From NCBI GenBank assembly GCA_029977665.1, contig JAPOKK010000009.1:1-35892 (forward strand): DNA of 35,892 nt. Reading direction: 5' to 3'. Within the stretch, counting starts at the first letter, position 1, and each line of letters opens with the position of its first letter. The notes below the pieces were generated by a model that saw only the letters and a list, made by a program, of their open reading frames with translations, did no database searches and was not told the origin of the DNA. This document shows, piece after piece, positions 1-32,769 of the stretch. A program made the translations under genes and the position numbers. This DNA is from Pseudomonadota bacterium (GTDB taxonomy: Bacteria > Pseudomonadota > Gammaproteobacteria > Ga0077536).

Positions 1-766
1 AATCGACGAAGAACTCGACCTGGGCGAGCAGCTCGTCGAGCGAACCGATGGTACGCATCAGCCATTGCACGACGCCGACGCGCACCTCGGTCTTGGGCAC
101 TTCGACGAGCGGCTTGTCCTGCGGTTCGTAGTAGAGGTTGTCCCATTCCAGCAGCGTCGCGTAGCCACGGCTGGCCTCGTCTTCGGGCAGGTAGGCGCGC
201 ATGATGCGCTTGACCTGGAAGTCGTTGGAGAGCTGGAAATTCAGGACCGGGTCGTCGAGTTCCTGGCGGCGCACCCGGTCGATGTACTCGGCCGGCGTCA
301 TGGTATCGGCATGCTCGGCGTAACCGGTGATGCGGCCGCCGGCGAGGATGCCCCGCAGGTTGAGTTCCATGCAGAGATCCTTGCGCGCGTCGTACAGGCG
401 CCGGCCGAGACGATAGCCGCGGTACTCCGGGTCGACCATGACATCGATGCCGTAGAGCGCGTCCCACTCGGGCTCGTGATGGATTTCGAGCTTGGCGCTG
501 ACCAGGTCCCGGTAGCGATGCGGCGAGGAAAAGCGGTTGTAATCGACGCGCACGGTCAGCGCCGCCGCGACGATGCGCCCGTTGTCCTCGATGCACAGCT
601 GTCCCTCGGGGAATTCCTCGAGCAGGCCGTCGATGGTGTGGCGCGGCCAGGCGCCGCCGAGATCCGGGTAGACGACGTTCTCCAGCCGCTCGAGACCGAT
701 GTGGTCGTCGATGGTGAGATTACGCAGTCGGATCAGGGTATCGGCGCCGGCGTCGGTCTGGCTCAT
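1..766 (-). CDS. Bifunctional GNAT N-acetyltransferase / carbon-nitrogen hydrolase (nitrilase) fusion, truncated at window edge
   Basis: Hand translation from ATG at 766: MSQTDAGADTLIRLRNLTIDDHIGLERLENVVYPDLGGAWP...GIDVMVDPEYRGYRLGRRLYDARKDLC (GNAT acetyl-CoA loop), followed by VRVGVVQWLMRTIGSLDELLAQVEFFVD (start of a nitrilase domain). No stop inside the window, so absent from the ORF track. Confidence 0.85.
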   Translation of the reverse strand, partial: MSQTDAGADTLIRLRNLTIDDHIGLERLENVVYPDLGGAWPRHTIDGLLEEFPEGQLCIEDNGRIVAAALTVRVDYNRFSSPHRYRDLVSAKLEIHHEPEWDALYGIDVMVDPEYRGYRLGRRLYDARKDLCMELNLRGILAGGRITGYAEHADTMTPAEYIDRVRRQELDDPVLNFQLSNDFQVKRIMRAYLPEDEASRGYATLLEWDNLYYEPQDKPLVEVPKTEVRVGVVQWLMRTIGSLDELLAQVEFFVD

Positions 767-845
767 GCGGAAAATCGGTATCAGGCTGGAGTTCCGTCTA
801 GCCTAACGGATTGCCCGGCGCGCGGATATGTCGCGAGCGTTATGG

Positions 846-1828
846 CTACCCGGCGGACGCGTTGTCACGCTCGACGGGGCTACGTCGGACACAATCGCGT
901 CCGGCCCCCTTGGCCGCGTAGAGCGCAGCGTCGGCCAGGCGCATGAGGGTTTCGGGTGTGCCGTCCCAGCCGGGCGCCGCGGTGGCGACGCCGAGACTCG
1001 CGGTCACTTTACGGCATACGCCATCGCGCGCACCGAGCTGCGCCACCGAGCTGCGCCACCGAGCTGCGCCACCGTGCGGCGCACCTGCTCGGCGACCCGT
1101 GCCGCCTGCTCAGCCGTCGTATCGCACAGCAGCAGCCAGAACTCCTCGCCACCGAGGCGCGCCGCGACGTCGGATGCGCGACGTGCACACGGCCGCAGGG
1201 AGCCACCCACGGCCTGCAGACAGCGGTCACCCTCGAAATGCCCGAAGGCATCGTTGTAGGACTTGAAGTGATCGATGTCGAGCGCAATCACGCTGAGCGG
1301 TAGCGCGGCGCGCTCGCGCCGGCGCCACTCCGTGCGCAGCGCCTCGTCGAATCGCCGACGGTTGGCAAGCCCGGTCAAGACGTCTTCGTATGCCAGCCGT
1401 TCCACGCGAAGCTCGGCCAGCTTGCGGCGGGTCACGTCGATGTGCGAAATGACGAACAGGCTTCCGACGTGGCCGCGCACCGGGCGCATTCGGATCACGA
1501 ACCAGCGCTCGCCATCGGGCGCATGACAAGGGTACTCGAACGTGAAATCCGCCGTCCTGCCGGCGACCAGGGAGCGCATGCCGTCGAGTACCTGCGCGGC
1601 GAGGCGATCGCCGCCCTCGGCGGCCCTGGCGCAGGCGTCGAAGTAGTTGCGCCCGATGCCGACCGCCGCGCGCTCGCCGCCATTGTCATCGGCAAAGCAC
1701 AGCCAGGAATCGTTGACGAAAACGATGTTTCCGGCCTCGTCGACCAGGGTGATCTGGTCCTCCAGCGAATCGACCATCGCCAGGAGCGCTTCGTCGGGAA
1801 GCTTGCGCCACGCGCCGTCCTTGTCCAT
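846..1828 (-). pseudogene. PAS-GGDEF diguanylate cyclase, frame-disrupted by a 13-bp tandem repeat (possibly phase-variable rather than dead)
   Basis: N-terminal part (ORF 1004..1870, likely ATG at 1828) has PAS, an RxxD I-site (RASD-VAARL-GGEEF) and GGEEF, then runs into AQLGGAARWRSSVRAMAYAVK*. The missing GGDEF C-terminus (VTASLGVATAAPGWDGTPETLMRLADAALYAAKGAGRDCV) is in another frame, ORF 846..1046. Confidence 0.85.
1031..1074. repeat. 13-bp tandem repeat, unit CACCGAGCTGCGC, 3 full copies plus 5 bp
   Basis: Read directly: caccgagctgcgc|caccgagctgcgc|caccgagctgcgc|caccg. Confidence 0.98.
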
Positions 1829-2853: not shown

Positions 2854-4242
2854 TCACGCCGGCAGGCGCAGGCTGACGCGCAGGCCAGGCGCGTTGTCGG
2901 CGAACTCGAGCGTGCCACGATGGCGTTCCGCGACCGCCTTGACGAGGCTCAGCCCGAGCCCGCTACCTGGCAGACTGCGGCTCCGGTCGAGTCGCGCAAA
3001 GCGTTGCGTCACCCGCGCGTGCTCCTCGACCGGGATACCGGGGCCGCTGTCGGCCACGGTCACGCGGACCATGCCGGGCGCCTTGCCGCCGTCACCCTCG
3101 TGATGCACGGTCACCAGCACCGTCGTTCCGGTCGCGGTGTACTTCAGTGCGTTGTCGATCAGATTCGCGATCGCCTGGAACAACAGGTTGCGGTCCCCGC
3201 TGATGTTGCATCCGGGTTCGGAATCGGCCGCGAGCACGACGTTGCGCTCCTGTGCAAGGCCCTGGTAGAGATCGAGCGCATCGTCGACGATGCGAGCGAG
3301 GTCTACCGGCTCGAAATGCGCGTCGTAGCTGCCCGACTCGATACGCGCGATGCGCAACAAGGCCGTAAACGTGGCGAGCAGGGCGTCGGCTTCGGCAACG
3401 CTCGCTTCGAGTTCGCCACGCAGTTCGTCCTGCGCGTCGCGCGCGGCCAGCTCGATGCGGTTGCGCAGCCGCGTCAGTGGTGTGCGCAGGTCATGGGCGA
3501 TGTTGTCGGAGACGTGGCGTACAGTCTCGAGCAGCGCTTCGAGCCGATCGAGCATCACGTTGAGATGTCCGGCGAGCAGATCGAACTCGTCGCCACCGCC
3601 CTGCTCGTCGAGCCGCCTGTCGAGCCGCCCCGCGACGATCTCCGAGGTGGTGCGCGTGAATGCGGAGATGCGGTTGAGCACCCGGCCTGACATCAGCAGG
3701 CCGCCGGCCGCGGCGAGCACGAAAGTCAGTCCGCCACCGATCAGCAGCGCGCGGTTGAAGGTCTGCTTAAGCTGGCGCAACTGGCCAATGTTGCGCCCGA
3801 CGAGCAGGTGCAGCCCGTCGCGCAGCAGGTAGACGCGCGCGCGGGCCGGCACCTCGCGGCCATCCGCGCGGCGATGCACGAACTCGATCCACCCCTCCTC
3901 GTCAGGCGTCGCCGGCGGATAGGCAGCGAGATTGCCGGCGAGCGGTTGATTGTCGCGGGTCGTGAACAGGTAGAGCATGTCGCCGCTGGGGTCGTTGCGA
4001 ATGCGGTGCGCAATGACCTGGACCAGGCGATCCAGACCATGTTCGAGGTACTGTTCGGCAAGCCCCGTGATCTCGGACTTCAGCGTGGCATCGGTCTCGC
4101 GCACGATGAGGCCGATGGTCGACCAGTAGAAGAACAGCGTGAGCAGACTGACCGAGATGCCGAATAACGCGATGTAGGACAGTGTCAGGTGAAAGGTCGT
4201 CGTGCGCAGAATCGCGCCGAGCCGCTGGCGCAGGCGCCGCAT
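2854..4242 (-). CDS. Two-component sensor histidine kinase
   Basis: N-terminal TM, HAMP-like region, H-box VSDNIAHDLRTPLTRLRNRIE, HATPase GSGLGLSLVKAVAERHRG. ATG at 4242 overlaps the stop of the response regulator (ATGA). Confidence 0.93.
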   Translation of the reverse strand: MRRLRQRLGAILRTTTFHLTLSYIALFGISVSLLTLFFYWSTIGLIVRETDATLKSEITGLAEQYLEHGLDRLVQVIAHRIRNDPSGDMLYLFTTRDNQPLAGNLAAYPPATPDEEGWIEFVHRRADGREVPARARVYLLRDGLHLLVGRNIGQLRQLKQTFNRALLIGGGLTFVLAAAGGLLMSGRVLNRISAFTRTTSEIVAGRLDRRLDEQGGGDEFDLLAGHLNVMLDRLEALLETVRHVSDNIAHDLRTPLTRLRNRIELAARDAQDELRGELEASVAEADALLATFTALLRIARIESGSYDAHFEPVDLARIVDDALDLYQGLAQERNVVLAADSEPGCNISGDRNLLFQAIANLIDNALKYTATGTTVLVTVHHEGDGGKAPGMVRVTVADSGPGIPVEEHARVTQRFARLDRSRSLPGSGLGLSLVKAVAERHRGTLEFADNAPGLRVSLRLPA

Positions 4243-4928
4243 CAGGTCTGCTCGCTGCCGGCGGCGATCTTGTAGCCGGCGCCGCGCACGGTATGCAGCA
4301 GGGGTTCGTCGAAGCCCTTGTCGATCTTCGCGCGCAGGCGACTGATGTGAACGTCGATGACGTTGGTCTGCGGATCGAAATGGTAATCCCACACGTGCTC
4401 GAGCAGCATGGTGCGCGTGACCACCTGGCCTGCGTGGCGCATGAGATACTCGAGCAGGGCGAACTCGCGTGGCTGAAGGTCGATCGCGCTCTCCCCGCGA
4501 TGCACGCTGCGGGTCATGAGGTCCATCTCCAGATCGCCCACGCGCAACAACGTGGCCGGGCCTTCCGGCGCCGTGCGCCGCGCCAGCGCCTCGAGTCGTG
4601 CCTCGAGCTCGCTGAAGGCGAACGGCTTGACCAAGTAGTCGTCGCCGCCGGCACGCAGACCGGCGACACGCTGATCGACTTCGCCGAGCGCGCTCAGAAT
4701 CAACACCGGCACGCGGTTGTCCGAGGCGCGCAGCGTACGCACGACGGTCAGTCCGTCGACCTCGGGCAGCATGCGGTCGAGCACGATCAGGTCGAAACTG
4801 CCGGTGCTCGCGACGAGCAGGCCGTCGCGCCCGTTGTCGGCCACGTCGACCGTGTGCCCGGCCTGCACCAGGCCGCTGCGCACGAACTCGCGCGTGTCGC
4901 GATCGTCCTCCACGACCAGGATGTGCAT
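4242..4928 (-). CDS. OmpR/PhoB-family response regulator
   Basis: MHILVVEDDRDTREFVRSGL...DLIVLDRMLPEVDGL receiver and winged-helix REFALLEYLMRHAGQVVTRTMLLEHVWD...VDVHISRLRAKID. Start ATG at 4928. Confidence 0.95.
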   Translation of the reverse strand: MHILVVEDDRDTREFVRSGLVQAGHTVDVADNGRDGLLVASTGSFDLIVLDRMLPEVDGLTVVRTLRASDNRVPVLILSALGEVDQRVAGLRAGGDDYLVKPFAFSELEARLEALARRTAPEGPATLLRVGDLEMDLMTRSVHRGESAIDLQPREFALLEYLMRHAGQVVTRTMLLEHVWDYHFDPQTNVIDVHISRLRAKIDKGFDEPLLHTVRGAGYKIAAGSEQT

Positions 4929-5107
4929 TGCCGTCTCTCCGCTGTCCGCGCTCGAATGCCGTGCCCGAAGGTCACGCCGGCCGCGATTATGCCCGGGCGG
5001 CCGGCGCGCGGCGCCGGCATTACGAAAAGTTAATGTCCAGGAAAGCACCGTGTAATCCGCGCGCCCCTACCTTAGGCGCATCGCCAATCCGATTGAAGGA
5101 GCACACG

Positions 5108-6631
5108 ATGAAATCAGTCCTGGCAAAGTTTAACGAACGCCCCATCCGGCGCACGGCCCTGTTCGCGGTGCCGATCATGCTCGGCGCGCTCGCACTGAAC
5201 GGCATCGGACCGGTGGCTGCCATCGAGGCACCGGCCCAGGATGCGCGCCCGGTCTTCGAGCGTGTGCAGTTCGCCGACGTCATCGAACGCGTACAGCCCG
5301 CGGTCGTAAAGATCGACGTGACCAAGACCATCGATGGCATCGCGCAGCTCGGCGGCCAGGCGCTGCCGTTCCGCGAGGGTGGACCGTTCGGTGAGTTCAT
5401 GCGCCGTTTCGGCGTACCGTTCGGGCCGCAGAATGGTCCGGGCATGGGCGGACCGCCGGCGCAGGCGGAGGGTCTGGGCTCGGGCTTCATCATCGATGCC
5501 GAGGGCCACGTCGTCACCAACAATCACGTCATCGACGGCGCCGACAAGATGAGCGTGACGCTGCACGACGGCACCGAGCTGCCCGCCCATCTCGTTGGCC
5601 GCGATCCGCTGACCGACCTCGCCTTGCTCAAGATCGAGGGCGGCGAGGACCTGCCGACCGTCGCCTTCGGTGATTCCGAGCGCGCGCGCGTCGGCGATTG
5701 GGTGGTCGCCATCGGTAACCCGTTCGGTTTCGGCGGCAGCGCCACGGCCGGCATCATTTCCGCGCGCGGGCGGGACATCAAGTCCGGACCCTACGACGAC
5801 TACCTGCAGATCGATGCGCCCATCAACAGCGGCAACTCCGGCGGTCCGATCGTCGACGCGAGCGGCCAGGTGATCGGCGTCAACACCGCGATCTTCTCGC
5901 CCAACGGGGGTAACGTGGGCATCGGCTTCGCGATCCCGGCAAGCGCGGCGGCCAAGGTCATCAACGAGCTGAAAGCGAACGGCAGCGTCACACGCGGCTG
6001 GCTGGGCGTGCAGATCCAACCGGTCACGGAGGACATCGCCGCGGCACTGCAACTCGACGAAGCGGCCGGCGCCCTCGTCGCGACGGTCGTCGATGACAGT
6101 CCGGCAGCGCTCGCCGGGGTCACCGCGGGCGACGTCATCGTCCGCTATGGGGATGTCGACATCGCCGACCCGCGCGAACTCAGCCGTGCCGTTGCCGCAA
6201 CCGACCCGGGCGAGAAGGTCTCCATCGCCGTCGTCCGCGGCGGCCGGGAGAAACGCCTGGTCACCGTCATCGACCGCAACGCACGCCAGGCGCTCGCGGC
6301 CGTCGAGAGCGGCGGCCGGGACGGCGCCAGTGGCGATGACGCCCTCGGTCTCGGTCTCGCTCTCGGCGAATTGCGTCCCGACGCACGCCGGCGCCTGCGC
6401 CTCGACGAGGACGTCGACGGTGCCTTCGTCGTCGGCGTCAAGAACGATGGTCCCGCGGCGAAGAGCGGCGTGCGCCCCGGTGACGTCATCGTCCAGGTCA
6501 ACCAGCGCGCAGTGGCCGATGCCGACGACGCCCAGGCGGCGCTGCGTGAAGCCAAGCAGGCCGAGCGCCCCATCGTCGTCCTCATCCGCGGCGGCGGTGA
6601 CCAGTTCTTCGCCACCATGAAGGTGGCGTGA
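5108..6631 (+). CDS. Do-family (DegP/DegQ/MucD-like) periplasmic serine protease
   Basis: N-terminal signal/TM, catalytic TNNHVIDG, TDLALLKI, NSGNSGGPIVD, two PDZ domains; GGAG RBS upstream of ATG 5108. Confidence 0.95.
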   Translation: MKSVLAKFNERPIRRTALFAVPIMLGALALNGIGPVAAIEAPAQDARPVFERVQFADVIERVQPAVVKIDVTKTIDGIAQLGGQALPFREGGPFGEFMRRFGVPFGPQNGPGMGGPPAQAEGLGSGFIIDAEGHVVTNNHVIDGADKMSVTLHDGTELPAHLVGRDPLTDLALLKIEGGEDLPTVAFGDSERARVGDWVVAIGNPFGFGGSATAGIISARGRDIKSGPYDDYLQIDAPINSGNSGGPIVDASGQVIGVNTAIFSPNGGNVGIGFAIPASAAAKVINELKANGSVTRGWLGVQIQPVTEDIAAALQLDEAAGALVATVVDDSPAALAGVTAGDVIVRYGDVDIADPRELSRAVAATDPGEKVSIAVVRGGREKRLVTVIDRNARQALAAVESGGRDGASGDDALGLGLALGELRPDARRRLRLDEDVDGAFVVGVKNDGPAAKSGVRPGDVIVQVNQRAVADADDAQAALREAKQAERPIVVLIRGGGDQFFATMKVA

Positions 6632-12161: not shown

Positions 12162-13175
12162 TCACAGGTGCGGGATGACCTGCTCGCCGAACAGGCGGAT
12201 GTCGGCCAGCGCCTCGGCCTGCGGCGGTCCGCCCGGCTGGCGCATGCGCAGCATCACGTAGTCGGGCTGGATCTCGTCGCGCCACATCTGCAGCTGCTCC
12301 AGGCACTGCGCCGGCGAGCCGGCGATGAGGCGATCCCGCGCCGCGATGTCGAAGCTCAGGTCCTCGGGACGCTTGACGTCCTTGATGTAGTCGTCGTGCA
12401 CGTAGGCGCCGTAGTGGAAGTACCAGCGGTGGGTGACCATGGTCGGCGCGCTCTTCGCCACGCAGGCCTCCCAGTCCTTGCCGATGACGCAGTCGCGCAT
12501 GAGCACGACGAACGGCTTGCGCCCGTGCTTCTTGGCTTCGGCCCGGTACTGCGCGGCGTAGTCCTTGATCACCGGCAGGGACTGGATTGGATCGGCGATC
12601 CAGCCGTCGCCCATGCGTCCGGCGCGTTCGAGGCCGGCCGGCACCCAGCCGGCGAGCCAGATCGGCGGTCCGCCTTCCTGGTAGGGCGTGGGCGTGACGC
12701 GCACGTCTTCGATGGTGTGGTACTTGCTCGGGTAGCTGAACGTTTCGCCCGACCACGCCTGGCGCAGGATCTCGACGCATTCCTCGGTGCGCCGTGCACG
12801 CTGCTTGACCGGCACCCCGAAGGCGTCGAAATCATGCGGGTGGTAGCCGATGCCGAGCGCCGAGACCATGCGCCCGCGGGTCGCCTGGTCAACCACCGCG
12901 ATGTCCTCGGCAAGACGGATCGGGTGGTACAGCGGCGCGAGCAGCACGCAGGTACCGACCTTGATGCGTCGCGTGCGCATGCCGATCATGCCCGCGAGCA
13001 GCACCGGTGCCGGCAGGTAACCGTCTTCCTGCTGGTGATGCTCGGTGAAGTAGAAGCCGTCGAAGCCCACCGCCTCGCACAGCTCGGCCTGCTCGACCAG
13101 TTCATCGATGAGTCCGGCGACGTTCTCGCCACGGGGTGGATCCTGGGTGCATGGGAAATAGCCTACGGGCAACAT
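12162..13175 (-). CDS. LLM class flavin-dependent oxidoreductase
   Basis: AELCEAVGFDGFYFTEHHQQEDG, VGTCVLLAPLYHPIRLAEDIAVVDQATRGRMVSALGIGYHPHDF, GGPPIWLAGWVPAGLERAGRMGDGWI. Confidence 0.9.
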   Translation of the reverse strand: MLPVGYFPCTQDPPRGENVAGLIDELVEQAELCEAVGFDGFYFTEHHQQEDGYLPAPVLLAGMIGMRTRRIKVGTCVLLAPLYHPIRLAEDIAVVDQATRGRMVSALGIGYHPHDFDAFGVPVKQRARRTEECVEILRQAWSGETFSYPSKYHTIEDVRVTPTPYQEGGPPIWLAGWVPAGLERAGRMGDGWIADPIQSLPVIKDYAAQYRAEAKKHGRKPFVVLMRDCVIGKDWEACVAKSAPTMVTHRWYFHYGAYVHDDYIKDVKRPEDLSFDIAARDRLIAGSPAQCLEQLQMWRDEIQPDYVMLRMRQPGGPPQAEALADIRLFGEQVIPHL

Positions 13176-13333
13176 CGTCTTCCTCTCCTCTGGGGCAGGC
13201 CGCGGGGCGGCATCATGGCAGAAAATCGTGCACCGGGGCGCACGCGCGCGGTCAAGCTACGCAAGGCGTCGTGCCGGGGTCAATCGCCCCGGCGTGGCGT
13301 GCGCACGGCTGTCCGGATTCGCGACGCGTGCGC

Positions 13334-14509
13334 TCAATCCCGCGCCCGGCGCGGCACGCCGAACAACAGCGCCGCGCCGAGCAGCGCCGAGGCGAGGGAG
13401 CCGAGCAGTACGCCGATACGGGTCGCGCCGACGTACTCGAACGCGCCGCGCTCGAAGGCCAGATTGCCGATGAACAGGCTCATCGTGAAGCCAATTCCCG
13501 CGAGCGCGCACACGGCGTAGAAACTGCGCCAGCTCGCGCCTTCCGGCAGGCTGGCCAGGCCGGCACGGATCGCGAGCCAGCAGATCAGGAATACGCCGGC
13601 CTGTTTGCCGAGGAACAGGCCCGTCGCGATGCCCAATGGCACCGCGCTGACCAGGAGCGCCGGATCCAGCCCGGTAAACGGTACGCCGGCATTGACGAAG
13701 GCGAAGACCGGCAGCACCAGGTAGGCCACCCACGGGTGCAGCGCATGTTCGAGCCAGCGCAGCGGAGAATGGCCGCGCACGTCGCTGGCAAGCGGGATGC
13801 ACAGGGCAACCACCACGCCGGCAAGCGTCGCGTGCACACCGGACTTGAGCACGCCGACCCACACCACGAGGCCGATCAACACGTAAGGCGTGATGGCCCG
13901 GATACCGGTACGGTTCAGTACGATCAGCGCAATCGTACCGACGGCAGCCACCATCAGCGCGATCAACGACAGGTCCGCGGTGTAGAACACCGCGATTACG
14001 ATGATCGCGCCGAGGTCGTCGAAGATCGCGAGCGAGGTCAGGAACATCCGCAACGACACCGGCACGCGCGAGCCGAGCAGCGAGAGTACGCCGAGCGCGA
14101 AGGCGATGTCGGTCGCGGCCGGGATGGCCCAGCCCTGCCGCGCCAAGGGATCGTCGTGGGTGAAAGCAAGATAGATCAGCGCCGGCAACACGAAGCCGCC
14201 CGCCGCGCCGAGCGCGGGCAGGACAATCTGCGCTCGTTCGGAGAGCTCGCCTTCGAGAACCTCGCGCTTGATCTCGAGGCCCACGAGCAGGAAGAACACG
14301 GCCATGAGGCCGTCGTTGACCCACAGGAACAGTGGTTTGTCGATGCCGACATCGCCGATGAGCACGCTCAGGTGCACGGTGAGCAGGCGGTCGTACCACA
14401 CGGCAAGCCCGGTGTTGCTGGCAAGCAGCGCCGCCGCCGTGGCGAACATCAACAGGATGCCCGCAGCGGCCTCGAGGCGCAGGAAGTCACGAATCAGCGA
14501 GATAGCCAT
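13334..14509 (-). CDS. nhaA: Na+/H+ antiporter NhaA
   Basis: MAISLIRDFLRLEAAAGILLMFATAAALLASNTG, WVNDGLMAVFFLLVGLEIKREVLEGEL, FTMSLFIGNLAF. Confidence 0.95.
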   Translation of the reverse strand: MAISLIRDFLRLEAAAGILLMFATAAALLASNTGLAVWYDRLLTVHLSVLIGDVGIDKPLFLWVNDGLMAVFFLLVGLEIKREVLEGELSERAQIVLPALGAAGGFVLPALIYLAFTHDDPLARQGWAIPAATDIAFALGVLSLLGSRVPVSLRMFLTSLAIFDDLGAIIVIAVFYTADLSLIALMVAAVGTIALIVLNRTGIRAITPYVLIGLVVWVGVLKSGVHATLAGVVVALCIPLASDVRGHSPLRWLEHALHPWVAYLVLPVFAFVNAGVPFTGLDPALLVSAVPLGIATGLFLGKQAGVFLICWLAIRAGLASLPEGASWRSFYAVCALAGIGFTMSLFIGNLAFERGAFEYVGATRIGVLLGSLASALLGAALLFGVPRRARD

Positions 14510-14611
14510 GCACGGCAATGTCGCCTGCCATGGCCGCGGAATCAAGCCACGGCAGCCGCGAGGCGCCGCGGCTCGTTACAATCCGGGCCTCACCCTGTAC
14601 GGGAAACGCAC

Positions 14612-16249
14612 ATGTATCTCGATCGTGCCGCGACCACCTACGAGGCGGTCCACGTGGGCTTCCGCTGGGACGGACTCGTGCCTGCCGAACTCAACCTCGC
14701 CACCGCCGTGTGCGACCGCTGGACCGACGACCCGGCACGTATCGCGCTCGTCTACGAATACGCCGACGGCCGCGTCGATCGCTACACCTATCAGCGGCTG
14801 CGCGAACTCAGCGACCGCTGCGCCAACCTTTTCGCCGCCCGCGGCCTGGCTCGCGGCGAGCGCGTCGCGGTGCTGCTGCAACAACATCCCGAGACCGCCA
14901 TCAGCCACATCGCGGCATGGAAGCGCGGGCTGGTGTCGTGCCCGATCTCGGTCCTGTTCGGGCCGGACGCCCTCGCCTATCGGCTGAACGACAGCTGCGC
15001 GCGCGTCATCGTCACCGACGCCGCCAACGCCCCCAAGGTCCTCGAGGTCCGTGCCCAGTGCCCGCAGCTCGAGCACGTGTTCGTCATCGACGAAGCGCCG
15101 GCCGGCTGCGAAGACTTCCACGCTGCACTCGCCGCGAGCCCGGACGGCGGCGAGGTCGTGACGACCGCCGCCGACGACCCGGCCTGGATCAGCTACACAT
15201 CGGGTACTACCGGCCCGCCCAAGGGGGCGCTGCAGCCCCACCGCATGCTGCTCGGCCTGCTGCCGAGCCTCGAGTTCGTTTGGGACTTCTTCCCACGCGA
15301 AGGCGACGTCACCTGGTCGCCCGCGGACTGGTCGTGGATGGGCGGGCTGACTGGCGTCATGCTGCCGAGCCTGTGGCACGGACTGACCACGGTCGGCACC
15401 CATCTCGGGCATTTCGACCCGGAGAACGCGTACCGCATCCTCGCCAAATACGGCGTGACCTGCACCCTCCTCGTACCGACGATGCTCAAGATGATGCGCC
15501 AGGTGCCGGCGCCGCGCGAACGTTACGACCTGCGCCTGCGCGTGGTCAAATCGGGCGCCGAGGCGGTCGGTGCGGAACTGCTGGAATGGGCCGAGCGCGA
15601 ACTCGGCGCGATCGTCAACGAGGTCTTCGGCCAGACCGAGTGCATGGAACCGCTCGGCAACAATGCGGCCGTGATGCCGATCAAGCCGGGATCGATCGGC
15701 CGCCCACTGCCCGGACACACCTGCGCCATCGTCGACGATGCCGGCAGCGAGCTCGGCAGCGGTGAGCTCGGCCACATCGCGGTGCGCGCCCCGCACCCCG
15801 TGATGTTCCTGGGCTATCTCAACCGCGACGAAGCCACGCGCGAGAAATACCGCGGCGAATGGTTGCTGACCGGCGACCTAGGTATACGGGACGAGGACGG
15901 CTACTACTGGTTCCGCGGACGCGCCGACGACGTCATCACCAGCGCCGGCTACCGCATCGGCCCGGCTGAGATAGAGGACGCCCTGCTGCGCCACCCGGCG
16001 GTCGCCAACGCGGCGGTGATTGGCGTGCCCGACGTCGAGCGCACCGAGGTCATCAAGGCTTTCGTGGTGCTCGCGCCGGGGCAAACCGGCGACGCGGCGC
16101 TGGTCGAGACGCTGCGCGACTTCGTGCGTACGCGACTCGCCCGCCACGAGGTACCGCGCTTCATCGAGTTCGTCGAGGCACTCCCGATGACGACCACGCA
16201 CAAGGTGATGCGGCGCGAGCTACGCGAGCGCGAGCGCTCGCGCGACTGA
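14612..16249 (+). CDS. AMP-binding acyl-CoA synthetase (medium-chain/acetyl-CoA synthetase-like)
   Basis: AWISYTSGTTGPPKGALQPHR, NEVFGQTECM, GEWLLTGDLGIRDEDGYYWFRGRADDVITSAGYRIGPAEIEDAL. Start ATG 14612. Confidence 0.93.
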   Translation: MYLDRAATTYEAVHVGFRWDGLVPAELNLATAVCDRWTDDPARIALVYEYADGRVDRYTYQRLRELSDRCANLFAARGLARGERVAVLLQQHPETAISHIAAWKRGLVSCPISVLFGPDALAYRLNDSCARVIVTDAANAPKVLEVRAQCPQLEHVFVIDEAPAGCEDFHAALAASPDGGEVVTTAADDPAWISYTSGTTGPPKGALQPHRMLLGLLPSLEFVWDFFPREGDVTWSPADWSWMGGLTGVMLPSLWHGLTTVGTHLGHFDPENAYRILAKYGVTCTLLVPTMLKMMRQVPAPRERYDLRLRVVKSGAEAVGAELLEWAERELGAIVNEVFGQTECMEPLGNNAAVMPIKPGSIGRPLPGHTCAIVDDAGSELGSGELGHIAVRAPHPVMFLGYLNRDEATREKYRGEWLLTGDLGIRDEDGYYWFRGRADDVITSAGYRIGPAEIEDALLRHPAVANAAVIGVPDVERTEVIKAFVVLAPGQTGDAALVETLRDFVRTRLARHEVPRFIEFVEALPMTTTHKVMRRELRERERSRD

Positions 16250-25285: not shown

Positions 25286-25519
25286 GCGTCGTCTCGGCGC
25301 ATGATGCCGAGATCGGCTTCAGCCACCTCATCCACCCGGGTGAGGTCGGCGCGCTGGCCGCGAGGAAATTCAAGACACGGGTACGCGCGCCGCCATAGCC
25401 TCCAGTGATGCACCAATGTGGATCAGGGGCGATCCCGCCGACACGGAAGGAACCGTGCTGAACGCGCTCGGCGCGGGCACGCCGGACGGGCCGCGGGCGT
25501 ACACGGCGGAGAGGCTCAT

Positions 25520-28500
25520 TTGGACGACCAGGTCAGAACCGCGGAACATCGGCTTGCCGGAGGTCTCGACGCGCTCGCGCAGGCGCTGATTATCGTCGAT
25601 GCCGACGGCATGGTGTGCTACGTGAACGAGGCGGCCGCGCGGCTCACCGGCCAGGATGCCGCGTTCGCGCGCGGGCGCCGTTGGAAAGACATCCTGTGCG
25701 GCACGAGCCCATCGCATACCGCACCGGCACTCGCGCCCGGCACGCACCGCATCGTTCTCGATGGTGAAGTTACCCCCCGCGATCTCGTTGTCACGGCCCT
25801 CGCCTCCGGCGTACCGGGCTACCTGCTCTGCGTGTCGGACAGCGACGACGCTTTCGAACTCGCCCCGGGCCGACGCCAGCAGCCGCTGCTCCAGGTCGCG
25901 CTGGAGAACGGACGCCAGGGTCTGTGGGAGTGGCAACCGCGCGACGACACGCTGCACTTCTCGCGCGAGTGGTACGCCATGTTCGGTCACGCACCCGGCT
26001 CCGTGCGCTCGCTGCTCGTCGATCTGCAGAGCCTGCTCCACCCCGATTCCGTCTCTGCCGGTCGCGCGGCGCTGGTGCCCATGCTGCGCGGCGAGCGTGA
26101 TGACTTCGAAGTCGAGCACCGTATCCGCCGCGCCGACGGCGCTTATATCCACGTGCTGTCACGCGGACGTTGCGTCGAGCGCAGTACCGACGGACAGGCG
26201 CTGCACGTCGTCGGCACGCACGTCGACATCACGCACCTCAAGCAGACGGAGCAACGCCTGCTGGAATCGCGTCAACTGCTCGAGACGGTCATCGACGCGT
26301 TTCCTCAGCGCGTGTTCTGGAAGGATCGCGACAATCGTTATCTCGGTGCGAATCGCAGCTTCGCCCGCGATGCCGGCTTCGCCGATCCGGCGGCGCTGAT
26401 CGGCATCAAGGTCACCGATATTGCCTGGCCGACTTCGTTCGATCCGATCAGGGAGGATGACCGTCGCGTGCTCGCCGGCGAAGTCGATAAGCTCGTCGTC
26501 CGCCGCGAGTTCCGCCCCGTCGCCGGCGACACGTTCTGGGCCGAAACGACCAAGGTCCCCATCCGCGACAGCGACGGCAGCGCCATCGGCATCCTCGGCT
26601 TCTACGATGACGTCACCGAACAGCGCCAGCGCGAACTGCAGATGAGAACCATCGCCGAGGCATTCACTGCCGTCGGGGAAGGCCGCCTGCTGGATGCCCT
26701 GGCACGCGCAGCGGCGGAACTCGCCGGCGCCGATTACGCGTTTCTCGCGCACCTGGACGACGACGGCACGCGTGCCCGCGTCAGCGCCTCTCACCCGCTG
26801 ACGTCGCCGGTCCTCACTGACCTCGACTACGCCCTCGCCGGCACACCCTGCGCGTGCACCATCCGTGACGGCCGCCATGCAACCCTGAACGACCTGGTGC
26901 GGACCTTCCCCGACGACCATCTCGTGCGCGATCTCGGTATCGAGGCGTATGTCGGCAATCGCCTCGAAACCTCCGACGGACGCCCCATCGGCCTGTTCGT
27001 CCTGCTCTTCCGCGAAGCGGTCACGGACCTCGAGCATGTCAACACGGTCATCGACATCTTCTCCGCCCGCGCAACGGCGGAGATTGAACGTGAACGCGCG
27101 CTGAGCGAGTTGCGCACCAGCGAACAGCGCCTGGAGACGGCTATCGCGCACGGCGGCCAGGACGTTTGGGAATGGCGGCCGGCCGACGACCGCCTGAACA
27201 TCATCGGCGATACCTTCGGGCGGCTCGGCCTGGAAAGTGGCAAGGCATTGCGCGTACGGATTCATCCCGATGACCACGCAGTGCAGAAGCGCGCCCTCAC
27301 CGACTACTACCGCGGCGTCAGCGAGCACTACGAGTACGAAGCGCGCATCCTGCATCCGGATGGCAACTATCGCTGGATGCTGGTGCGCGGACAAACCGCC
27401 TCGCGCGACGATCACGGGCGTATCGAACGCCTCATCGGCACGGTCACCGACGTCTCGGCGCTCAAGTCCGCCCAGCTCGGCCTGGAAACGTCGCAGGATT
27501 TTCTCGAACTGGTCATTGATACCGTACCGCAGGCGATCTTCTGGCAGGACCTCTCGTTCCACTATCGCGGCTGCAACCAGCGCTTCGCCGAGCTTGCCGG
27601 CGTCGCAATGCCGGAAGATCTCGTGGGCCGCAGCGATGCCGACCTGTGGTGGCACGCCTCGGCCGCCACGTTCCGTGCCGAGGACCGATCATTGATCGCG
27701 GGCACGGTACCGAGCCTGCACGGTGAGCTGTCGCTGTGCCTGCCCGACGGCACGGACAAGTGGTTCGAACTCGTCAAGGTGCCGATGCGTGACGCCGACG
27801 GCGCCATCATCGGCATCCTCGGCGCGGTGCACGATGTCACCACGCGCAAGCAGGCCGAGGATGCCGCGCGTCATCTCGCGTGCTTCGATCCCCTGACCAA
27901 CCTGCCCAATCGGCGCGACTTCACCGCCCGCCTCCAGAGCAGCCTCGCCCTGGCGCAGCGGCGCCGGCGCACCGGCGCGCTGTTGTTCATCGATCTCGAC
28001 CAGTTCAAGCAGATCAACGACACCCTGGGCCATTCCGTCGGCGATGCATTGCTGCAGGCGGTCGCCAGACGGCTGCAGGGCGTGACGCGCCAGGAGGATA
28101 CCGTGGCGCGCCTCGGCGGCGACGAGTTCGTCGTGCTACTGCCCGAGGTCGCCGGCGACCACGACGACTGCGCGCGCCAGGCGCAGCTCGTCGCGGATAA
28201 GATCCACGAAACACTGCGTCAGCCGTTCCAGTTCGAGCACCACCAGTTCCACGTCACGCCGACCATCGGCATTTCGTTGTTTCCCGACGGCGACAAGGAC
28301 GTCGACGATGTCCTCAAGGAAGCCGACACGGCGATGTACAGCGGCAAGGCTGCGGGCCGCGGCGTCACACGCTTCTTCCGCCGCGAGATGGAGGAAGCGG
28401 CACAGCGGCGCCTGCGCATCGAGGGCGACCTGCGCAAAGCCATCGTGCGCCAGGAATTCGAGCTGCGCTTCCAGCCGCAGGTCGACGCGACCGGTTTCGT

Positions 28501-29182
28501 CAGCGGCGCGGAGGTCCTGTTGCGTTGGCAACACCCCGAGCACGGGGTGATTTCGCCCGGCGACTTCGTACCCATCGCCGAGGAACGCGGGCTTATCGTC
28601 GACATCGGCCGCTGGGTGCTCGATGCCGCCTTCGATCGCTTTCGCGACTGGCTGGAAAGCGGGCGCGCGGATCTCGGCGAGCTCGCCATCAACGTCAGCT
28701 CGCGGCAGTTCCGCGCGGACGACTTCTACGGTGACGTCGAGCGTCTGCTGATCGCCCACCGTATTCCGCCACAACGGGTGGTGTTCGAAATCACCGAAGG
28801 CACCGTGGTCGAGGACGTCGAAGCGACCATCGCCATCATGGAGCGTCTGCGCCGCCTCGGCATCCGCTTCGCGATCGACGATTTCGGTACCGGCTACTCG
28901 TCGCTGTCCTACCTCAAGCGGCTGCCCATCGACCAGCTCAAGATCGACCGCTCCTTCATCGCCGACATCGGGCGCGACAGCAATGACGAGGTCATCTGCC
29001 AGACCATCGTCGCGATGAGCCAGCACCTGCGCCTGCAGACCATTGCCGAGGGCGTCGAGACCCCCGAGCAGTACAACTTCCTCGCGCGTCTGCGCTGCAG
29101 TGGCTACCAGGGCTACCTGTTCCTGCCGCCCGCGACCGAAGCAGAGTTTCTCGCCTACTACGACCGCGCCAACCAGCGCTGA
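25520..29182 (+). CDS. PAS-[PAS-PAS]-GAF-[PAS-PAS]-GGDEF-EAL c-di-GMP signalling protein
   Basis: Several PAS repeats, central GAF-like domain, RQEDTVARLGGDEFVVLLPE (I-site plus GGDEF), AEVLLRWQHPEHG, INVSSRQF, IDDFGTGYSSLSYLKRLPIDQLKIDRSFI, TIAEGVETPEQ. Likely TTG start at 25520 after GGAGAGG. Confidence 0.92.
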   Translation: MDDQVRTAEHRLAGGLDALAQALIIVDADGMVCYVNEAAARLTGQDAAFARGRRWKDILCGTSPSHTAPALAPGTHRIVLDGEVTPRDLVVTALASGVPGYLLCVSDSDDAFELAPGRRQQPLLQVALENGRQGLWEWQPRDDTLHFSREWYAMFGHAPGSVRSLLVDLQSLLHPDSVSAGRAALVPMLRGERDDFEVEHRIRRADGAYIHVLSRGRCVERSTDGQALHVVGTHVDITHLKQTEQRLLESRQLLETVIDAFPQRVFWKDRDNRYLGANRSFARDAGFADPAALIGIKVTDIAWPTSFDPIREDDRRVLAGEVDKLVVRREFRPVAGDTFWAETTKVPIRDSDGSAIGILGFYDDVTEQRQRELQMRTIAEAFTAVGEGRLLDALARAAAELAGADYAFLAHLDDDGTRARVSASHPLTSPVLTDLDYALAGTPCACTIRDGRHATLNDLVRTFPDDHLVRDLGIEAYVGNRLETSDGRPIGLFVLLFREAVTDLEHVNTVIDIFSARATAEIERERALSELRTSEQRLETAIAHGGQDVWEWRPADDRLNIIGDTFGRLGLESGKALRVRIHPDDHAVQKRALTDYYRGVSEHYEYEARILHPDGNYRWMLVRGQTASRDDHGRIERLIGTVTDVSALKSAQLGLETSQDFLELVIDTVPQAIFWQDLSFHYRGCNQRFAELAGVAMPEDLVGRSDADLWWHASAATFRAEDRSLIAGTVPSLHGELSLCLPDGTDKWFELVKVPMRDADGAIIGILGAVHDVTTRKQAEDAARHLACFDPLTNLPNRRDFTARLQSSLALAQRRRRTGALLFIDLDQFKQINDTLGHSVGDALLQAVARRLQGVTRQEDTVARLGGDEFVVLLPEVAGDHDDCARQAQLVADKIHETLRQPFQFEHHQFHVTPTIGISLFPDGDKDVDDVLKEADTAMYSGKAAGRGVTRFFRREMEEAAQRRLRIEGDLRKAIVRQEFELRFQPQVDATGFVSGAEVLLRWQHPEHGVISPGDFVPIAEERGLIVDIGRWVLDAAFDRFRDWLESGRADLGELAINVSSRQFRADDFYGDVERLLIAHRIPPQRVVFEITEGTVVEDVEATIAIMERLRRLGIRFAIDDFGTGYSSLSYLKRLPIDQLKIDRSFIADIGRDSNDEVICQTIVAMSQHLRLQTIAEGVETPEQYNFLARLRCSGYQGYLFLPPATEAEFLAYYDRANQR

Positions 29183-30173: not shown

Positions 30174-31157
30174 ATGCCCGATCTGCTCGACAGACTTCAC
30201 ACCCGCGCGCCAATCTGGAGCGCCGGCATGGGCGGCGGCCTCGCCGGTCCCGCGCTGACCGCAGCGGTCTGCGAGGCCGGCGGCTTCGGCGTACTCGGCT
30301 GCGGGGGCGCGCTGCCCCGCGCCGAGGTCACCCGGCTCATCGAGCAGACGCGGGCGCTGACCTCGCGCGCCTTCGGCGCCAACATCATCCTGCCGATGTC
30401 CGACGGCAGCGACGTCGAAGCCTGTTTCGATGCCCGCGTGCCGGTGCTGGTGCTGTTCTGGGGTGACGTACAACCCTTCGTCGCCGACGCGCACCGGCGC
30501 GAGATGTACGTCGTCGCGCAGTGCGGCGGCCCGGACGATGCCGTTGCGGCCGCCGATGCCGGTGTCGACGCGGTCATCGTGCAGGGTAGCGAAGCCGGCG
30601 GCCACGTGCGCGCGCGGGCGCCGCTGGCCGAGACCGTGACCCAGGCGGTACGCGTGCTCGGACCGGTGCCGACCATCGCCGCCGGCGGTATCGCGACCGG
30701 CGCGGACATTGCCACCGCCCTCGCCTACGGCGCGCGCGGCGTCTCACTCGGCACGCGCTTTCTGGCCAGCCGCGAGGCTGCCGCGCACGACGCCTACAAG
30801 GCGCGCGTCGTCGCCGCCGGCGCCGAAGACACGCTGATGACCGAACTGTTCGACATCGGCTGGCCGGCCGCCGCGCACCGGGTCTTGCGCAACGCCACCG
30901 TCGTGGCCTGGGAGGGGGCGGGCCGCCCGGCCTCCGGCGAGCGCCCCGGCGAGGGCGAGGAAATCGGTACAATCGGCGCCGGTACGGAGCGTATCGGGAT
31001 CCCGCGCTACAGCGTCCTGCCGCCGGTCACGGACTTCGATGGCGACATCGAGGCCGCCGCGCTCTACGCCGGAGAATCGGTCGCGCGCATCGACGCCGTC
31101 GACGACGCCGCCGCAATCATGACGACCCTGATGGACGAACTGCGTGCCGCTACCTGA
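30174..31157 (+). CDS. Nitronate monooxygenase family protein (second paralogue)
   Basis: IWSAGMGGGLAGPALTAAVCEAGGFGVLGCGG, VIVQGSEAGGHVRA, PTIAAGGIATGADIATALAYGARGVSLGTRFLAS. Confidence 0.92.
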   Translation: MPDLLDRLHTRAPIWSAGMGGGLAGPALTAAVCEAGGFGVLGCGGALPRAEVTRLIEQTRALTSRAFGANIILPMSDGSDVEACFDARVPVLVLFWGDVQPFVADAHRREMYVVAQCGGPDDAVAAADAGVDAVIVQGSEAGGHVRARAPLAETVTQAVRVLGPVPTIAAGGIATGADIATALAYGARGVSLGTRFLASREAAAHDAYKARVVAAGAEDTLMTELFDIGWPAAAHRVLRNATVVAWEGAGRPASGERPGEGEEIGTIGAGTERIGIPRYSVLPPVTDFDGDIEAAALYAGESVARIDAVDDAAAIMTTLMDELRAAT

Positions 31158-31212
31158 GCGGGAGCCGGCTGTACGCCTAACCGAGCAACGTAAACGAAGA
31201 CGGAAAACGAAC

Positions 31213-32769
31213 ATGCGAGTGACCCAGCCCCTGCAGCGCAACCTGCAACAGATCCCCAACGAGGTGGCGACCATCGACGGCGAGCGGCGACACACCTGGG
31301 CCGAGTTCGTCGACCGCGTCGCGCGCCTCGCCGGCGGACTCCACCAGCTGGGCCTGAAAACCGGCGATCGCGTCGCTGTCATCGGCCTCAACTCCGATCG
31401 CCACATGGAAGTGTTCTTCGCCGTACCCTGGGCCGGCGGCGTCATCGTGCCGACCAACTACCGCTGGTCCGCGCCCGAGATCGCGTTCTCACTGAACGAC
31501 TCGGGCACGCGCGTGCTGTTCATCGACCGCGCGTTCTGGCCCCTCGTCGAAGCGCTCCGTCCGCTCGTCGAAGACCCGCTGACGGTCATCTGCCTGGACG
31601 ACGCGCTCCCGGGGCACGACGCCGTTCACGACGAACTGATCGCGGCCAGCGCAGCGGTCGACGAACACGTCGCCGGCGCCGACGACCTGTCCGGCATCTT
31701 CTACACCGGGGGCACGACGGGACGTTCCAAGGGGGTCATGCTGACGCACGGCAACCACGTCGCCAACACGCTGCAGTTCGCCGCGATGATCGGCCTCTCG
31801 CCCGACATCGTGTACCTGCACGGCGCGCCGATGTTCCACATCGCCGATGCCCTGTACATCTACCTCGTCACCCATCTCGGCGCGCGCCACGTGTTCATCC
31901 CGCGTTTCGAGCCGGCCGCCTGCGCCCAGGCGATGCAGGATCACGCCGTGACCGACACCATCCTGGTGCCGACGATGATCCAGATGCTGCTCGAACAGCC
32001 GGGCTTCGCCGAGTACGACCTCGGCAAGCTGGCGCGGCTGTACTACGGTGCCTCGCCGATGCCGGAATCGGTCGCCATCGACTTGATCGGCAAGCTGCCA
32101 TGGGTGGCCGCCTACCAGCTCTACGGCCAGACCGAAGCGGCGCCGCTGCTGACGGCGCTGGACGCCCGCTACCACGTCACCGAGGGCCCGCTGGCCGGCC
32201 GCCTGCGCTCGGCCGGCCGCGCGGTGCCGGCGGTCGAGCTGCGCATCGTCGACGAGAGCGGCGCCGAAGTGCCGCGTGGCACGGTCGGCGAGATCGTCGC
32301 GCGTGGCCCGAACATCATGAAGGGCTACTGGGGCCGCGAGGACCTCAGCGCGGAAACGCTGCGCGGCGGCTGGCTGCACACCGGCGATGCCGCCTACATG
32401 GACGACGGCGGCTTCATCTTCATCAGCGACCGCCTCAAGGACATGATCATCTCGGGTGGCGAGAACGTCTATTCGACAGAGGTCGAAAACGCGCTCTACC
32501 AGCACGAGGACGTCGCCCAGGTTGCGGTCATCGGCATCCCGGACGAGAAATGGGGCGAGCGCGTGCACGCGGTCGTCGTGCCACGCGACGGCACGCAGCC
32601 CGACCCGGCCGAACTGATGGCCTTCTGCCGCACACTCATCGCCGACTACAAGTGTCCGCGCTCGGTCAGCTTCCGCGACGAGCCGCTACCCCTCTCGGGC
32701 GCCGGCAAGGTCCTCAAGACCGAGCTGCGCAAGCCGTTCTGGGAAGGCCGCGACCGCCAGGTGAACTGA
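31213..32769 (+). CDS. Long-chain-type acyl-CoA synthetase / AMP-dependent ligase
   Basis: LSGIFYTGGTTGRSKGVMLTHGNH, YQLYGQTEAAPLLT, GWLHTGDAAYMDDGGFIFISDRLKDMIISGGENVYSTEVENALY. Confidence 0.94.
   Translation: MRVTQPLQRNLQQIPNEVATIDGERRHTWAEFVDRVARLAGGLHQLGLKTGDRVAVIGLNSDRHMEVFFAVPWAGGVIVPTNYRWSAPEIAFSLNDSGTRVLFIDRAFWPLVEALRPLVEDPLTVICLDDALPGHDAVHDELIAASAAVDEHVAGADDLSGIFYTGGTTGRSKGVMLTHGNHVANTLQFAAMIGLSPDIVYLHGAPMFHIADALYIYLVTHLGARHVFIPRFEPAACAQAMQDHAVTDTILVPTMIQMLLEQPGFAEYDLGKLARLYYGASPMPESVAIDLIGKLPWVAAYQLYGQTEAAPLLTALDARYHVTEGPLAGRLRSAGRAVPAVELRIVDESGAEVPRGTVGEIVARGPNIMKGYWGREDLSAETLRGGWLHTGDAAYMDDGGFIFISDRLKDMIISGGENVYSTEVENALYQHEDVAQVAVIGIPDEKWGERVHAVVVPRDGTQPDPAELMAFCRTLIADYKCPRSVSFRDEPLPLSGAGKVLKTELRKPFWEGRDRQVN

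Follow-up and report, generated by a model that had tools for sequence, protein, structure and literature searches.

The 13-bp tandem array that interrupts a PAS-GGDEF diguanylate cyclase gene in this genome is probably a tandem duplication that arose recently and cost a dispensable gene its function, and its revertibility is likely to be incidental. The window (the whole stretch of 35,892 nucleotides that was analysed) is contig 125 of the 442 that make up a draft genome of 4.24 Mb, and the copy number of the 13-mer was taken from this one draft assembly. The original prediction had claimed three head-to-tail copies of a 13-mer at positions 1031–1074, and both the sequence and the coordinates were as it described. 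The perfect array counts 3.38 copies of the unit CACCGAGCTGCGC, namely three perfect copies and a partial unit, CACCG, which corresponds to the first 5 bases of a fourth. The features concerned are as follows:

1031–1074, no strand assigned: 13-bp tandem array, CACCGAGCTGCGC x 3.38, 26 bp longer than the inferred one-copy ancestor
1070–1082, no strand assigned: diverged fourth unit CACCGTGCGGCGC, 11/13 identical to the unit (2 mismatches)
1004–1828, minus strand: truncated PAS-GGDEF diguanylate cyclase ORF, 274 aa from the ATG at 1828 as assembled
849–1043, minus strand: intact but out-of-frame GGDEF C-terminal tail of 65 aa, joined to the cyclase frame only at one or four copies
1775–1828, minus strand: first 18 codons of the cyclase, the sole part of the gene found at the syntenic place in G001, a congener genome

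The length of the array is far above chance. At lags of 4–60, the longest self-match in the window was 31 bp (at lag 13), compared with 16 bp across 40 Markov-simulated windows. In full, the imperfect array spans 52–57 bp, and the CACCG opening CACCGTGCGGCGC is the right-hand member of the pair of 5-bp repeats from which the duplication probably started. Folding of positions 1020–1090 was no stronger than that of shuffled sequences (z of 0.11), which gives no indication of a DNA hairpin as the cause of instability. The doubled 13-mer unit had no other copy anywhere in the genome to which it belongs. A survey of 80 stretches plus the window covered 824,470 bases of this genome, in which contigs shorter than about 3 kb appeared as N, and revealed no other genic non-triplet array of at least three copies. 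The sole other non-triplet array in this sample was a 7-bp array (CTGCGCA, 4.9 copies) at positions 6080–6113 of locus L141 (G000:C218). It is apparently intergenic and lies upstream of a putative uracil-DNA glycosylase gene, a name assigned by reading the translation.

According to Pfam, the cyclase gene encodes a PAS domain (PF08448) and a GGDEF domain (PF00990). In the assembled ORF, PF00990 was matched over positions 1–111 of the 161-position GGDEF profile (E value of 1.4e-35), and the motifs LTGLANRRRFD, DIDHFKSYNDAFGH, RASD (I-site), and GGEEF (active site) were all recognised, the last being a form of the GG(D/E)EF signature that marks GGDEF diguanylate cyclases. No single frame holds the complete GGDEF domain, as profile positions 121–160 sit in another frame. 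Read alone, the out-of-frame tail matched Pfam GGDEF at positions 121–160 of 161 (E value of 1.2e-5) and the C-terminus of the nearest full-length relative (E value of 3e-7), which is encoded at locus L024 of a gammaproteobacterial MAG. Given that 13 is not divisible by 3, one or four copies are in frame and two or three copies are out of frame, and the protein predicted from ATG 1828 has 318 aa with one copy, 268 with two, 274 with three (the present state), and 331 with four. The three-copy protein terminates with ...VAQLGGAARWRSSVRAMAYAVK*, and the one-copy frame reads ...VAQLGARDGVCRKVTASLGVATAAPGWDGTPETLMRLADAALYAAKGAGRDCV.... Among the parts that the three-copy protein lacks are the TASLGVA strand and the ADAALYAAKGAGR helix; judging from the family, an active three-copy enzyme is therefore unlikely. 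The 274-aa product, lacking the last third of the GGDEF domain, is very probably inactive.

The cyclase is otherwise readily recognisable, and a disrupted frame in such a gene is a mark of a pseudogene. No stop was found over the 65 codons of the tail, its motifs are kept, and decay beyond the first lesion was not detected in it, which points to an event that either happened recently or can still be reversed. In these respects the original prediction agreed with our analysis. It had held that three copies truncate the GGDEF domain (in our analysis after 274 aa, near position 111 of the 161-position profile), that a single copy gives a normal GGDEF C-terminus, that the frame is open with one or four copies and closed with two or three, and that the well-preserved motifs and out-of-frame tail hint at a recent or reversible inactivation. 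No sigma-70-like promoters or terminators were found at positions 780–2120. An internal restart at GTG 1046 (ORF 846–1046), by which the tail would be made separately, was also considered; it would yield a mere fragment of a GGDEF domain and is unlikely to matter.

The relative at L024 provided a reference for the ancestral copy number. Its protein is 48% identical to the cyclase over residues 15–250. When it is aligned with the predicted one-copy protein, its residues 243 and 254 fall opposite residues 250 and 261 of the latter; the offset is thus equal on both sides, and the array site is spanned without a gap. No array was present at the corresponding site of L024, and the few tandem arrays detected at the loci of relatives were all outside the matched GGDEF regions. 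As the gap-free alignment is obtained at the one-copy length, one copy is likely to be the ancestral state, to which 26 bp would have been added. The ancestral gene probably contained CACCG-AGCTGCGC-CACCG, i.e., 5-bp direct repeats 13 bp apart, along with the 11/13 imperfect second unit. Replication slippage between the CACCG repeats probably doubled the 13-mer, and a further slip would have led to three copies (+26 bp), shifting the frame within the GGDEF domain and ending the protein after 274 aa. There is no physical barrier to back-slippage to one copy, by which the gene would be restored. Three perfect copies are expected to be less stable than one, and the locus may therefore vary in the population. 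We found nothing usable in the literature on measured deletion rates for comparable repeats.

The only congener genome compared, G001, has both flanking genes in the same order, with window positions 1–854 at 95% identity and the right-hand side at 87%. Between them, G001 has 246 bp against about 1,090 bp in the window, and the cyclase start codon is conserved in the remnant. The remnant locus is at about positions 5682–5927 of L199 (G001:C250), and its left junction carries about 75 bp of unrelated sequence. As the start of the gene is common to both genomes, a deletion in G001 appears likelier than an insertion here. Among 35 other genomes of the family, no match to the cyclase was found at E<=1e-35; a search at the order level covered the identical 36 genomes and returned nothing further. 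The cyclase gene seems dispensable given that nearly all of it was deleted in the sister species, as judged from few comparisons and one congener, and this loss does not exclude a role of the cyclase in the present species.

About 30 GGDEF matches were obtained in the genome carrying the array. They include a 1254-aa multi-PAS GGDEF-EAL protein encoded on the plus strand of the window (25418–29182). The window also carries adjoining genes for a histidine kinase, a response regulator, and a DegP/HtrA-like protease (2854–6631), an ordinary arrangement resembling those of envelope stress. Two AMP-binding (acyl-CoA synthetase-like) enzymes are encoded on its plus strand (13136–16249 and 31144–32769). 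In the first of them, only the C-terminal half accounts for the match; for the 500 residues at the N-terminus, Pfam gave no hit at E<=1e-8.

The original prediction had gone beyond the truncation and proposed an ON/OFF switch. At such a contingency locus, slipped-strand mispairing of the 13-mer would toggle the cyclase between ON (one or four copies) and OFF (two or three copies), and the variability would be kept by selection. Part of this proposal stood, in that the frame arithmetic holds and the mechanism permits reversal: the repeat lies within the reading frame, its unit is non-triplet, one and four copies are in frame, the GGDEF tail is intact, and there are c-di-GMP enzymes that undergo phase variation (PMC11868660). 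However, the comparison with orthologues in sister genomes, which had been put forward as a check, turned out against it, since the array is not conserved: L024, the nearest relative, is arrayless, and in G001 the body of the gene is lost and only the 18 codons are left. Furthermore, only three copies are present here, the three-copy allele is the only one known and comes from one assembly, and the sampled part of the genome holds no second genic array of three or more copies with a non-triplet unit. The lack of an orthologue in the family at the threshold used and the roughly 30 GGDEF matches of the genome also speak against an evolved switch, and they agree with the loss of a gene that is dispensable. 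A full product would be made only at one or four copies, and thus each collapse to one copy would end the instability. We consider a contingency locus quite improbable here, and an evolved slippage switch that turns PAS-GGDEF c-di-GMP synthesis on and off within the population very improbable. Nothing in the data points to selection having moulded or maintained the array for switching. A reversible state would also explain the lesion-free tail.

Two further explanations place a working gene in the species. There is a small chance that the three-copy allele is a population variant, either dominant or simply the one sampled, and that most of the species has a working one-copy gene. All but the array looks functional, the single lesion implies a young event, and the fragmented draft is the one genome of its species in the comparison. 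Nevertheless, this explanation shades into that of a loss-of-function duplication, from which it would differ in allele frequency alone. Short tandem repeats can also be miscounted in draft genomes, and the remaining gene looks intact, as it would if the true copy number were one (or four). Against such an assembly error, an array of this span is crossed by ordinary short reads, and assemblers collapse repeats more often than they add copies. We regard this last possibility as extremely unlikely. The preferred interpretation is a recent duplication by which the cyclase was probably inactivated.

Among known systems, the pneumococcal capsule gene cap3A is reportedly inactivated by frameshifts from short tandem duplications and reverts by their precise loss. 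The present array resembles it as a perfect tandem duplication in an otherwise intact gene, for which losing the extra copies would suffice to restore function. By contrast, reversion of cap3A is said to have been observed in the laboratory and concerns a capsule gene, whereas the cyclase is a signalling enzyme known from a single three-copy allele. The simple-sequence-repeat contingency loci of Neisseria, Haemophilus, and Campylobacter have been classified (PMC4235727), and there too a change of repeat copy number within a reading frame alters the frame. Those loci are mostly mono- to pentanucleotide repeats, often with many copies, several loci per genome, and measured switching, whereas here one 13-mer in three copies was identified from sequence alone. 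In c-di-GMP metabolism, the promoters of pdcB and pdcC, which encode phosphodiesterases in Clostridioides difficile, are invertible, and a phosphodiesterase of the E. coli sfa operon is under phase variation (PMC11868660). If the switch were real, the cyclase would resemble them as a gene of c-di-GMP metabolism that is turned ON and OFF, but promoter inversion or epigenetic control acts on phosphodiesterases there, and the repeats here are within a diguanylate cyclase gene. Mutational hot spots in c-di-GMP pathways of Pseudomonas fluorescens are mediated by direct repeats of 6 bp in awsX and 8 bp in mwsR (PMC6324874). In both cases short direct repeats in c-di-GMP genes give length mutations, which recur in P. 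fluorescens; in awsX and mwsR these are deletions that keep the frame and were selected during evolution experiments, whereas here an out-of-frame duplication stands in a natural genome.

In the open-access literature searched, we found no diguanylate cyclase described as phase-variable through repeats. An evolved switch at this locus, if real, would be, to our knowledge, the first repeat-based switch of a diguanylate cyclase between in-frame and out-of-frame states. It would extend repeat-based phase variation to a second-messenger enzyme, as opposed to surface or restriction-modification genes. On the present evidence, the locus rather indicates that, within a redundant and GC-rich gene, a short direct repeat may be the seed of a multi-copy duplication that breaks the frame, and it offers an example of a lesion that could be mistaken for a contingency locus if comparative data were lacking.
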